From Phycisphaerae bacterium (GTDB lineage: Bacteria; Planctomycetota; Phycisphaerae; Sedimentisphaerales; Anaerohalosphaeraceae), in the NCBI GenBank assembly GCA_018052735.1, contig JAGPMT010000029.1, positions 1-40,017 on the forward strand: 40,017 nucleotides of DNA. The letters run 5' to 3'. Below the pieces are notes generated by a model that saw nothing but the letters and a program-made list of their open reading frames with translations, made no database searches and had not been told where the DNA came from. Position 1 is the first letter of the stretch. Each line of letters opens with the position of its first letter. The translations under genes were made by a program, and so were the position numbers. Of this stretch, positions 12,337 to 16,435 are shown piece by piece.

Positions 12337-13497
12337 ATGGTTCAGCATCACTCTGCGGATATTGAAAAATGGCTCAAGCTGATTCGTTCAGACGGTATCG
12401 GCCCTGTACTATTTAAACGCCTGCTGGATGCGTTCGGAGATGTGGATCGCATTCTTGCAGCTTCGGCTGCCCGGTTGGCCGAGGTGAAAGGAATCAGTCA
12501 AACCACAGCCCAGCAGATTGCCCGAACGCGGAATACTTTTAATGCTGAAAAAGAAATCGAACATGCTGATAAACTGGGAGTGTGGATTGTTCACCTGCAT
12601 GATCCGCGCTACCCGCCTGCTTTGAAGGCCATTTACGATCCGCCGCCGGTGTTGTATGTCAAGGGAACATTGACGCGAGCCGACACGCTGGCCTTGGCCA
12701 TCGTAGGAAGCCGCCGCTGCACGCTTTACGGAACCGAACAGGCCGGCCGTTTTGCGCATCTGCTGGCTTCTGCCGGCTTTACAATTGTCAGCGGCGGCGC
12801 ACGCGGCATCGATGCTGCCGCTCATCGCGGGGCTTTGTCCGCCAAAGGACGCACCATCGTTGTTCAGGGCAGCGGGCTGGCCAATCCGTTTCCAGCTGAA
12901 AACCAAAAGCTTTTTGAGCAGGCGGCGGAATCCGGCGCTGTTATCAGTGAGCTTCCGCTGACGTATGAGCCGCTGGCAGCAAACTTCCCCGGACGCAATC
13001 GCATTATTGCCGGCCTGTCATTGGGGGTGCTGGTGGTTGAGGCAGCCCATCGAAGCGGCGCTCTCATCTCAGCACAGGCGGCTTTGGACAATAACCGTGA
13101 AGTAATGGCTGTTCCCGGCCGGATTGATTCGCCTGCCAGTGCCGGCTGTCATCAACTCATCAAACAAGGCGCACGCCTTGTCGACAGCATCGACGATATT
13201 ATGGCGGCGCTGGGCAATGTGGGTGACGGCTTACAAGACTATGCTGCATCAGCGGCCGGTCAAGCGGAACAGAACGCCCAAAAAAGTTTGTTTGATGTAT
13301 CCCGTCTGAATCTGACCAAAGAAGAAAACGCTATTCTCGATTGCCTTAATTCAGAACCTGTTCATGTGGAAGATTTGATTGCACAAACAAAACTGACAGC
13401 CGGTCAAGTTCATGCGGCCGCTGTTAGTTTGCAGTTGAAGGGACTCATCCGGCAGCTTCCCGGCGGAATGTTTGTCAAACGGCATCAGACTCAATAA
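12337..13497 (+). CDS. dprA: DNA-processing protein DprA
   Basis: Binds incoming single-stranded DNA during natural transformation and loads RecA. The 386-residue protein has an N-terminal helix-hairpin-helix region (residues 5-65), the Rossmann-fold DprA core with GSRRCTLYGT, SGGARGIDAAAH and NRIIAGLSLGVLVVEA (about residues 125-260), and a C-terminal winged-helix DML1-like domain ending in LPGGMFVKR. I chose ATG 12337 over GTG 12298 because GAAGGG lies immediately upstream and family members start close to the HhH. It ends 7 bases inside the convergent HTH gene. No other competence genes are visible. Confidence 0.93.
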   Translation: MVQHHSADIEKWLKLIRSDGIGPVLFKRLLDAFGDVDRILAASAARLAEVKGISQTTAQQIARTRNTFNAEKEIEHADKLGVWIVHLHDPRYPPALKAIYDPPPVLYVKGTLTRADTLALAIVGSRRCTLYGTEQAGRFAHLLASAGFTIVSGGARGIDAAAHRGALSAKGRTIVVQGSGLANPFPAENQKLFEQAAESGAVISELPLTYEPLAANFPGRNRIIAGLSLGVLVVEAAHRSGALISAQAALDNNREVMAVPGRIDSPASAGCHQLIKQGARLVDSIDDIMAALGNVGDGLQDYAASAAGQAEQNAQKSLFDVSRLNLTKEENAILDCLNSEPVHVEDLIAQTKLTAGQVHAAAVSLQLKGLIRQLPGGMFVKRHQTQ

Positions 13498-14066
13498 AGA
13501 ATAGTAAAGTTTTTCTGAATGCAGGCCAGAATGGCATTAATATTATTTGTGGATGTTACGACAGCGTCAAATCCCTGTTTGTGCAAGTTCTGAGCTTCTT
13601 TTTCCCCAAGTCCGCCGGCCAAAGCAATCAGCATGCAGTCGGACAATTCCTCCCGGCTGCGAACATCATTGCACAGCCCGCGCGCATCAATGGAACTGTT
13701 CATTAAATCAATCAGGATAATATTGGGAGAGAATTTCAGGGACATCAGCCCTGCATCAAAACTGTTGTAGGCACACTGGACCTCAAAACTACCCCGCATT
13801 TTCAGTTCTTCGGCAAGTTTTTGGGAATAATCTGTTCGGCTGTCGATTATAAGAATACGAATTTTTCCTTTTTCGAGTTCAGTTGTCGGAATATCGTGTT
13901 CCTTCATAAATCGAATCAGTTCACTAAGCGGGATGCGCCTATCTTTTGAACCGGGTATCCGATAGCCGCGAAGCTGGCCTGAATCAAACCATTTTGTCAC
14001 CGTGCGCGGAGCAACCTTGCACAACTGCGCCACCTGACCGGTAGTTAAAACATCTTTTCTTCGCAT
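13491..14066 (-). CDS. Excisionase-like HTH regulator fused to a degenerate receiver domain
   Basis: A 191-residue predicted DNA-binding regulator. Residues 5-55 form an excisionase/MerR-like winged helix (LTTGQVAQLCKVAPRTVTKWFDSGQLRGYRIPG). Residues 68-185 look like a CheY-type receiver: strand ILIIDSR, a candidate phospho-acceptor Asp in IILIDLM, and a helix-strand order typical of the fold. The acidic pair at the first strand is reduced to a single Asp and the conserved lysine near the end is not visible (VVTSTNN), so normal phosphorylation is doubtful. No histidine kinase is adjacent. The gene converges on dprA with a 7-base overlap. Paired TGTCC/GGACA half-sites lie upstream and may be its operators, which is inference. 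Confidence 0.75.
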   Translation of the reverse strand: MRRKDVLTTGQVAQLCKVAPRTVTKWFDSGQLRGYRIPGSKDRRIPLSELIRFMKEHDIPTTELEKGKIRILIIDSRTDYSQKLAEELKMRGSFEVQCAYNSFDAGLMSLKFSPNIILIDLMNSSIDARGLCNDVRSREELSDCMLIALAGGLGEKEAQNLHKQGFDAVVTSTNNINAILACIQKNFTILY

Positions 14067-14079
14067 AAAAATTCCAAAA

Positions 14080-14261
14080 TGTCCATAAGGACAGGTATTC
14101 GTTGGATAATCCCTAATCTCTCACAACCGACTCCTTGCTCGGCAATCTTTTTTCGGCTTGAAAGGGATTCAAAATAATCAGCTTGCGGTGCAAGTCTGAC
14201 TTTTTCGAAAAATAATGCATATTCTTATTCAGTTATGTCCGATAAAATAATTATTGGACAT
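14080..14261. promoter_or_regulatory. TGTCC/GGACA inverted half-sites upstream of the HTH regulator
   Basis: TGTCC (14080-14084) and GGACA (14089-14093) form one palindrome with a 4-base spacer. ATGTCC (14235-14240) and GGACAT (14256-14261) form another with a 15-base spacer. They lie between the HTH gene and the leader of rny. Operator function, perhaps autoregulation, is a guess. Confidence 0.3.
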
Positions 14262-14333: not shown

Positions 14334-14361
14334 TTGACCGATAATATAAATAATGTATGAT
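14334..14361 (+). promoter_or_regulatory. Predicted sigma70-type promoter for the rny leader RNA
   Basis: TTGACC (14334-14339) and TATGAT (14356-14361) are 16 bases apart. Transcription would begin near 14368, exactly where a multi-helix structure starts and about 480 bases before the rny ATG. Confidence 0.55.
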
Positions 14362-14367
14362 GCAGTA

Positions 14368-14572
14368 TATTCGGTGTTGATAATAGTAGAAAGCTCCTTA
14401 TTCATACCTGTCCTGTTCTTTAACAGGCGGGGCTAAAGGGCCAGACCTGTAAAGGCTGGTTGTAAGCAGTGCTTTGAGAGCACCGATATTGTCCGGAAGG
14501 GCGAAAGGCGAATTAAAAATTTTAGTTTCGCCAAGTCCACAATCCTGACAAGTCGGTGAGTTTGGCGAAAGG
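14368..14572 (+). ncRNA. Candidate structured RNA (riboswitch-like leader or small RNA) upstream of rny
   Basis: Several helices fit a compact fold. CGGTGTT (14372-14378) pairs with AGCACCG (14479-14485) and closes the structure. Inside, AGCTCC (14392-14397) pairs with GGGGCT (14429-14434) around the hairpin CCTGTT/AACAGG (14412-14427). A separate hairpin at 14441-14459, CCAG-A-CCT with AGG-CTGG, has a GNRA-type GTAA loop. Downstream, TTTCGCCAA (14526-14534) can pair either with TTGGCGAAA (14562-14570) or with either of two upstream GGCGAA(A) copies, giving mutually exclusive hairpins. I do not recognise it as a known riboswitch, tmRNA, RNase P RNA or SRP RNA. There is no long ORF here. Confidence 0.4.
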
Positions 14573-14579
14573 GAATTTT

Positions 14580-14762
14580 GGTGATAAATTCAGTCAAATC
14601 CTATGGCAAAAAATGGAATTGCCGGGGGATATTACAAAAGGATGTCATATTTTCCGCTTCGAGAAAACTTCTTCTGCTTCAAATAGAGTCTGTTTGCTCA
14701 GCCCATGGAGGCAGAAATATGCGGAATTTGGTTCGTTCTCACTGATACCCTGAATTTACACC
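14580..14762 (+). ncRNA. Long 6S-like RNA hairpin, candidate ssrS
   Basis: GGTG-A-TAAATTCAG (14580-14593) pairs with CTGAATTTA-CACC (14750-14762), a 13-bp helix with one bulge. Further in, TTCCGC (14652-14657) pairs with GCGGAA (14721-14726), and TTCTGCTTC (14672-14680) with GAGGCAGAA (14708-14716). The whole is one rod of about 183 nt with a large asymmetric internal loop; the 5' loop strand can form its own hairpin (ATCCT/AGGAT and GGCAA/TTGCC, 14598-14643). Length, open centre and position just ahead of rny match 6S RNA, often found next to rny in bacteria. The 5' loop is larger than usual, so the identity is tentative. Confidence 0.33.
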
Positions 14763-14851
14763 ATCCTCTATTGTCTCTTCAGCAGTCTGCTGACATTTCC
14801 AGCCTTTCTGCAGGTCTGAACAAGTAACTGCATTCAAGAAAGGTGTCAACA

Positions 14852-16435
14852 ATGGAAATACTGGCTCAGATGAGTGTTGCGACAAGTATTTTTATAGGGG
14901 TGGTCATCGGTATTCTGGCTGGCGGGGGAATCGTTTTTGTTGTATTACAGGGGATTATAAAGACCCGCGCCAAGGTCACTCAGGAGGAGATTGAAGCACG
15001 CATCGAAACGGCGAAAAAGCAGGCCGAAACAATCCTGAAAGAAGCTCGTCTGGATGCCGCCGGCGAGATTATGAAAAAACGCCAGGAATTTTCTGCCGAA
15101 GTCAGCTCCCGGGAAAATCAGCTGCGTATGCAGGAATTGGAACTGACAAAAAAGCAGGATCTCCTTGAGCGCCAGCAGGAGAAGATCCAGCAGCAGGAAA
15201 AGCAGCTGGCCAACAAAGATCGCGAATTAGAGCGGCAAATCAATACCTATAATAACCGCAATAAGGAATTGGCCAATCTCGTTGCCCAGCAGAAGAATAT
15301 GCTCTTGAAGATTACTTCGCTGGATGTCGAACAGGCAAAAGAGATGCTGCTAAGCCGGCTGGAAGATGAGTGCGAGCGGGAGATGAACCAGCTTATTCAG
15401 CGGAAAACCGCCCAAGCAGAGGAAATGGCGGAAGAAAAGGCCAAAGAAATCATCAATCTGGCGATTCAGCGCTATGCCGCTGAGCAGACCTGCGAAGTCA
15501 GCGTTTCAATGGTGGATATTCCCAGCGATGACATGAAAGGCCGCGTCATCGGCCGAGAAGGACGCAATATCCGTGCGTTTGAGAAGGCAACCGGTGTCGA
15601 TGTGATTGTGGATGACACGCCGGGCGTCATTGTGGTCAGCGGCTTCAATCCGATTCGCAGAGAGGTTGCCCGCCTGAGCATGGAACGGCTGATTCAGGAT
15701 GGACGCATCCACCCAAGCCGCATCGAGGAAATTGTCAGTCAGGCTAAAAAAGATGTTCATTCCCGTGTTATCCAGCTGGGCAAAGAAGCCGCAGAAGAAG
15801 TAGATGTTCGCGGTCTTAATAACAAGATTATCGGGATGCTCGGTGCCCTCCATTACCGAACCAGCTACGGTCAGAATGTCCTGCGTCACAGTGTCGAAGT
15901 GGCATTTCTGGCACAGGTTATGGCTGATGAGCTGGGGCTGGATGGTTCCCTTGCAAAGCGGGCGGGTCTTCTGCATGACATCGGCAAGGCAATGGACCGG
16001 GAAATCGAGGGCGGACACCCCGCTATCGGTGCTAATTTCCTGCGCCGCTTCAAGGAATCCAATGTCATTCTCAATGCTGTCGAAGCCCATCATGGCGACA
16101 TTCCAGCCGACAATCCCTATACCCCACTGGTTGCTGCGGCTGATGCCATCAGTGCCTCCCGCCCCGGCGCTCGGCGCGAAACGCTTGAACGCTATATCAA
16201 GCGGCTGGAAAAACTCGAAGAAATCGCCGCCGGTTTCGAAGGCGTGGAAAATTGCTATGCCATTCAGGCAGGCCGTGAGATTCGGGTCATTGTAGATGCC
16301 GAAAAAGTCAGCGATGATGTGGCTATGAAAACCGCCCGCGACATTGCTAAAAAGATTGAAGATGAAATGACCTACCCCGGCGAGATTAAAGTAACGCTGC
16401 TGCGCGAAGTCCGCTGTGTCGAATACGCCAGATAA
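14852..16435 (+). CDS. rny: Ribonuclease Y
   Basis: Membrane-anchored endoribonuclease that initiates mRNA decay; 527 residues, the normal size. An N-terminal transmembrane helix (about residues 8-35) is followed by a long charged coiled coil (35-200), a KH RNA-binding domain containing [12 protein letters not shown] (about 230-250), and an HD domain with [12 protein letters not shown] near residue 375 and EAHHGD downstream. I chose ATG 14852 over an in-frame GTG at 14843 because AAGAAAGG (14836-14843) is well placed for it. It is followed 50 bases later by the YmdB-type gene, a partner often found next to rny. A long structured leader precedes it. Confidence 0.96.

Follow-up and report, generated by a model that had tools for sequence, protein, structure and literature searches.

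A conserved structured RNA in the predicted 5′ leader of the RNase Y gene of Phycisphaerae, with features suggestive of a translational switch

Feedback through the leader of rne has been described in Escherichia coli and Synechocystis, and in E. coli this leader of a major endoribonuclease gene is very long (361 nt) and acts in cis (PMC10989929). In Bacillus subtilis, RNase Y cuts the mRNA that encodes it, both early in the reading frame and in the 5′ UTR, which is 164 nt long and is cleaved at many places (PMC10303841). The rne-II motif (RF01756), whose name refers to rne, is listed as a candidate structured RNA of Pseudomonadales (PMC2864571). On the control of major RNases in Planctomycetota, our literature search found nothing. 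Here we analyze a 40,017-nt stretch of DNA from a Phycisphaerae bacterium (assembly GCA_018052735.1, contig JAGPMT010000029.1, positions 1 to 40,017; hereafter the window), in which a structured RNA precedes rny. The locus resembles B. subtilis rny in the gene itself, in the long 5′ UTR, in the feedback by RNase Y that we propose and in the structure around the translation start; it differs in that its leader runs to about 480 nt, its multi-stem core is conserved and strands far apart can form an alternative pairing. With E. coli rne it shares a very long leader in front of a major endoribonuclease gene and, as proposed below, feedback in cis. The E. coli rne 5′ UTR, which we take to be Rfam family RF00040, differs from it in that Rfam searches gave no match in sequence or structure, the enzyme belongs to another family, and a switch in Shine-Dalgarno (SD) pairing is indicated here. 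The rne-II motif likewise had no match to the window region.

The initial annotation of this DNA had placed a riboswitch-like leader with its own promoter at 14334–14572, upstream of rny, leaving an independent small RNA as the alternative. The promoter that it named, TTGACC-16-TATGAT, is present and would place the transcription start near 14368. The locus comprises the following features.

14334–14361, forward strand: promoter, with the −35 box TTGACC at 14334–14339, a 16-base spacer and the −10 box TATGAT at 14356–14361 (10/12 consensus matches).
14368–14851, forward strand: predicted rny 5′ UTR (leader), about 484 nt, defined by the promoter position, by the lack of a conserved downstream promoter or terminator and by its fold (z −5.40 for the full leader, 14368–14866).
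14836–14845, forward strand: SD region of rny, AAGAAAGGTG, supported by its coevolution with the 3′ element described below.
14852–16435, forward strand: rny (RNase Y; Pfam RNase_Y_N, KH_1 and HD), with an ATG start at 14852 assigned from the SD sequence and the ATG.

The GTG start listed for rny, at 14843, overlaps the SD sequence. A ymdB-like gene comes after rny, and a gene for an HTH_17 protein lies upstream of the leader on the opposite strand (13491–14066); this gene is also found divergent beside the leader in most of the relatives whose flanking sequence is long enough. A dyad, TGTCCGATAAAATAATTATTGGACA (14236–14260), stands between the HTH_17 gene and the leader, and a GTCCGATAA-like sequence was seen 5′ of the leader promoter in several relatives as well (L003, L004, L008, L009 and L011); the dyad and this sequence may be an operator. 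RNase E/G is also encoded in the window's genome.

We examined the region between promoter and gene in 54 rny loci. A TTGAC promoter was found 430–620 nt 5′ of the rny start in 36 of them, indicating that the leader promoter is conserved among relatives, and the predicted 5′ UTR was 454–523 nt long in 13 genomes. Weaker promoter matches downstream of the main one occurred at 19 loci, at no common position, and terminator-like sites before rny at 10, near the chance level (6.9 expected). Because the promoter stands at the start of the UTR and neither a conserved promoter nor a conserved terminator precedes rny, the reading of the RNA as a cis-acting 5′ leader of the rny mRNA, rather than as a separate small RNA, is well supported by the sequences. 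A long structured 5′ UTR cotranscribed with the RNase gene, the hallmark of an autoregulatory RNase leader, is thus what the locus is predicted to have, while the terminator of its own that an independent small RNA would carry before the next gene was not found. Transcription attenuation was rejected, as no conserved terminator was present in the 54 loci. An independent trans-acting small RNA that sits upstream of rny by chance would fit the strong promoter of its own and the compact, covarying core; against it stand not only the missing conserved terminator and second promoter but also the constant linkage to rny and the coevolution with the rny initiation region described below, and we regard it as very improbable. 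A small RNA processed out of the leader is possible. Of the annotated proposal, the leader upstream of rny is therefore upheld by covariation, synteny, promoter and SD coevolution, and the independent small RNA is disfavored.

Folding of the region 14368–14572 gave −68.2 kcal/mol (z −3.86), and none of 200 shuffled sequences folded equally well, in agreement with the structured RNA that had been proposed after the promoter; the RNA is larger than first reported. We aligned 13 sequences with MAFFT (alignment A1), and the layout common to them was a P1 hairpin, a conserved linker and then a long bulged hairpin, P2-P3-P4-P5. As judged from the alignments, the best-conserved part of the leader is the core at 14441–14573, with stems P1–P5. 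The elements in and next to it are as follows.

14441–14459, forward strand: P1 hairpin with a GTAA loop, CCAGACCT-GTAA-AGGCTGG in the window (alignment and covariation); it shares its strand with the 5′ strand of the long-range helix P7, described below.
14481–14558, forward strand: core bulged hairpin P2–P5 (covariation; covariance models R1 and R2).
14481–14486/14553–14558, forward strand: P2 (covariation).
14489–14496/14544–14551, forward strand: P3 (covariation).
14499–14502/14535–14538, forward strand: P4, invariant GGGC/GUCC (covariation).
14503–14506/14533–14534, forward strand: internal loop, GAAA and AA (invariant).
14507–14512/14527–14532, forward strand: P5 (covariation).
14564–14572, forward strand: second copy of GGCGAAAGG, 3′ of the core (alignments), kept in most of the genus.
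14604–14624, forward strand: P6 hairpin, with moderate support in the genus (67.9% paired versus 60.0% in shuffles, 3/500).

Paired bases filled 91.4% of the cells of A1, compared with 28–45% in slid controls. Double changes were found in 12 pairs, and there were 36 double-change cells versus 11.7 in shuffles (0/500), although the aligned genomes are related and these counts are not of independent events. A larger alignment of 25 sequences (A3), which was fitted to the covariance model and hence is biased towards it, had 148 double-change cells versus 49. The covariation of the core in these alignments is strong, and the motif GGGC-GAAA-GGC / GCC-AA-GUCC was invariant among the aligned relatives. 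Compensatory changes in the rny upstream regions of relatives, which the annotation had suggested as a check of its fold, are thus present in the core stems. The GTAA hairpin that it had noticed is P1, which occupies the position of a hairpin in relatives too, with the pairing register shifted in the window. Its long-range closing stem, 14372–14378 with 14479–14485, was not supported: the stem can form in the window, but in 13 relatives 70.3% of its cells were paired, versus 71.3% in shuffles, and two cells had double changes. When a 5′ partner for the P2 strand was sought by duplex search, p<0.05 was reached in 3 of 13. Most of the 3′ arm of the stem (14481–14485) falls within P2, which is well supported, as part of its 5′ strand. 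GGCGAAAGG is present twice in the leader, inside the core at 14500–14508 and again just 3′ of it. The fold of the window's leader predicts a further long-range pairing, of UAAAUUCAG with CUGAAUUUA (14585–14593 with 14750–14758), and similar pairings seem possible by eye in some relatives. Searches of Rfam 15 with the window and its relatives returned only tRNAs at the gathering threshold, and matches to the leader were at chance level at E<=5. The RNA is undescribed in the sense of being absent from Rfam, consistent with the annotation, which had assigned it to no known class; an earlier description outside Rfam is possible.

A DNA search of 98 genomes, including that of the window, found the region in 8 of 9 genomes of the same genus and in some of the same family. 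The covariance model R1 matched 29 of 161 genomes of the order, and wherever the locus reached far enough, the match was immediately followed by rny on the same strand. The core RNA was single in each genome, and no extra copy was found in the window's genome. Model R2 recovered further members of family f1 and also family f2, where seven genomes outside its training set had a match upstream of rny and two further genomes gave E values of 2e-8 and 6e-5. In family f7 the covariance models gave marginal matches at best, and many genomes had, in the same place, a promoter followed by a linker resembling GTTAAGTTRCAAAGA and by a long hairpin; from these sequences the f7 leaders are probably diverged relatives of this RNA. 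Class-wide searches gave no convincing match beyond the order, and searches of viral contigs gave no matches. A pattern scan of genome contigs yielded 25 loci. Public records bearing the pattern were titled Phycisphaerae, Phycisphaerales, Sedimentisphaerales, Planctomycetales or Planctomycetota, except for chance matches and one Candidatus Kuenenia contig. This contig, CAMDDF010000109.1 (titled Candidatus Kuenenia stuttgartiensis; L060 / L041, G043), carries the rny locus and the RNA described here, and its title may be a mislabelling. The matches discarded as chance were one in Saccharibacteria (L058), which overlaps a long reading frame read as radA-like; four that agree with the patterned part of the model only (L046, L047, L048 and L063); and a weak one in another family (G346), whose surroundings lack any match to rny, ymdB or HTH.

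The interval given in the annotation ends with the core but omits two elements further downstream, the rny ribosome-binding site and a 3′ element. When the window's leader was folded, a long-range helix, P7, appeared between the P1/linker region and this 3′ element.

14442–14479, forward strand: 5′ strand of P7, formed by P1 and the conserved linker (fold of the window's leader; swap tests).
14776–14818, forward strand: 3′ element, the 3′ strand of P7, containing GCCUUUCU (fold; swap tests).

The P1 hairpin competes with P7 for the strand that it occupies, and GCCUUUCU is complementary to the rny SD sequence. We compared native strand pairs with pairs exchanged between genomes, after removal of row and column means (swap test). 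For P1/linker and the 3′ element, p was 5e-5 in genera g1 and g13 (n=11), 2e-4 in the other loci (n=18) and 0.001 in f7 (n=13); for the SD region and the 3′ element it was 0.028, 5e-5 and 0.017, respectively, with permutations that ignore the relatedness of the genomes. None of the first control windows was significant. When P1 and the linker were tested apart, one of the control windows did as well as the linker in the other genera (p 0.027 for both), and in f7 a segment 5′ of the linker also gave p 0.022. The f2 leaders (n=9) gave no signal. Compared with shuffles alone, SD pairing was modest, with a mean z of −1.3 over 57 leaders, a third of which reached p<0.05. The overlap of the two pairings on the 3′ element was 0.49, above the expected 0.32 (p 0.003). 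When the 5′ strand was deleted in silico, pairing between the SD sequence and the 3′ element rose: the value for 29 leaders went from 0.47 to 0.76 (p 1.7e-6) and that for the window's leader from 0.00 to 0.87. Part of this rise is to be expected, since the sequences themselves make the two pairings compete; in f7 the effect was not significant. By energy alone, P7 did not form in about a third of the f1/f2 leaders. Taken together, these comparisons indicate that the strands of P7 and those of the SD-masking pairing each coevolve and that the two pairings are alternatives, as in a translational switch. Among the f7 rny leaders, those of L075, L078, L081, L083, L084, L085, L109, L111, L113, L115, L119, L129 and L130 lack a clear GGCGAAAGGC motif; in most of these the conserved linker is complementary to a 3′ element near the start codon.

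The leader might instead control mRNA stability rather than translation, as a substrate or landing site of RNase Y (or RNase E/G), with the SD pairing being secondary. The leaders of B. subtilis rny and E. coli rne do act mainly through mRNA decay (PMC10303841, PMC10989929), but the coevolution of SD and 3′ element in three sets of loci, set beside first controls that were not significant, argues against this reading, which we consider unlikely. The resemblance to translational riboswitches is closer, extending to a conserved core, a switching strand and an anti-SD element that masks the ribosome-binding site; the differences are the single gene context, the distance of about 300 nt between the P7 strands and a ligand that is hypothetical. 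In a true riboswitch, the core P2–P5 with its GAAA/AA loop would bind a small molecule or ion and set the balance between P7 and SD masking. The leader does have a conserved, covarying, receptor-like domain, in which the invariant internal loop and P4 lie within variable, covarying stems, and its layout is that of an aptamer plus expression platform, with mutually exclusive pairings in f1 and f7 (swap tests and pairing overlap) and no such signal in f2. Riboswitch classes, however, usually serve several genes of one pathway, whereas this RNA occurs once per genome and before rny only; it also has no Rfam match, and the probable f7 relatives retain the linker and 3′ element without this core motif. 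A true riboswitch therefore appears doubtful.

The reading that we favor, with somewhat better than even confidence, is that of a switch-like rny leader in which P7 and SD masking compete to set translation, with RNase Y itself as the likeliest effector. When P7 is formed, the anti-SD element would be tied up and rny translated. When the 5′ strand is made unavailable, by formation of P1, by remodelling of the core or by a cut in the leader with loss of its 5′ part, the 3′ element would mask the SD sequence and translation would drop. RNase Y in excess would bind or cut its own leader, giving feedback on its own synthesis. We infer this effector from context, because each genome has a single copy of the RNA, always before rny, and because RNase leaders with feedback are known; the RNase E/G that the genome also encodes counts against it. 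A more specific and tentative version is that the leader senses its own integrity: P7 would tie up the anti-SD element only in a whole leader, and once RNase Y had cut the leader and its 5′ part was lost, the element would be free to silence rny. If that were true, the breaking of the rny leader would be a direct readout of how active RNase Y is.

In summary, a large and well-supported leader RNA stands before a central mRNA-decay enzyme in several families of one order, and explicit helices and compensatory mutations are now available for testing. Switch-like control of this kind would add a solution of distinct structure to the RNase-leader feedback already described for B. subtilis rny and for rne.
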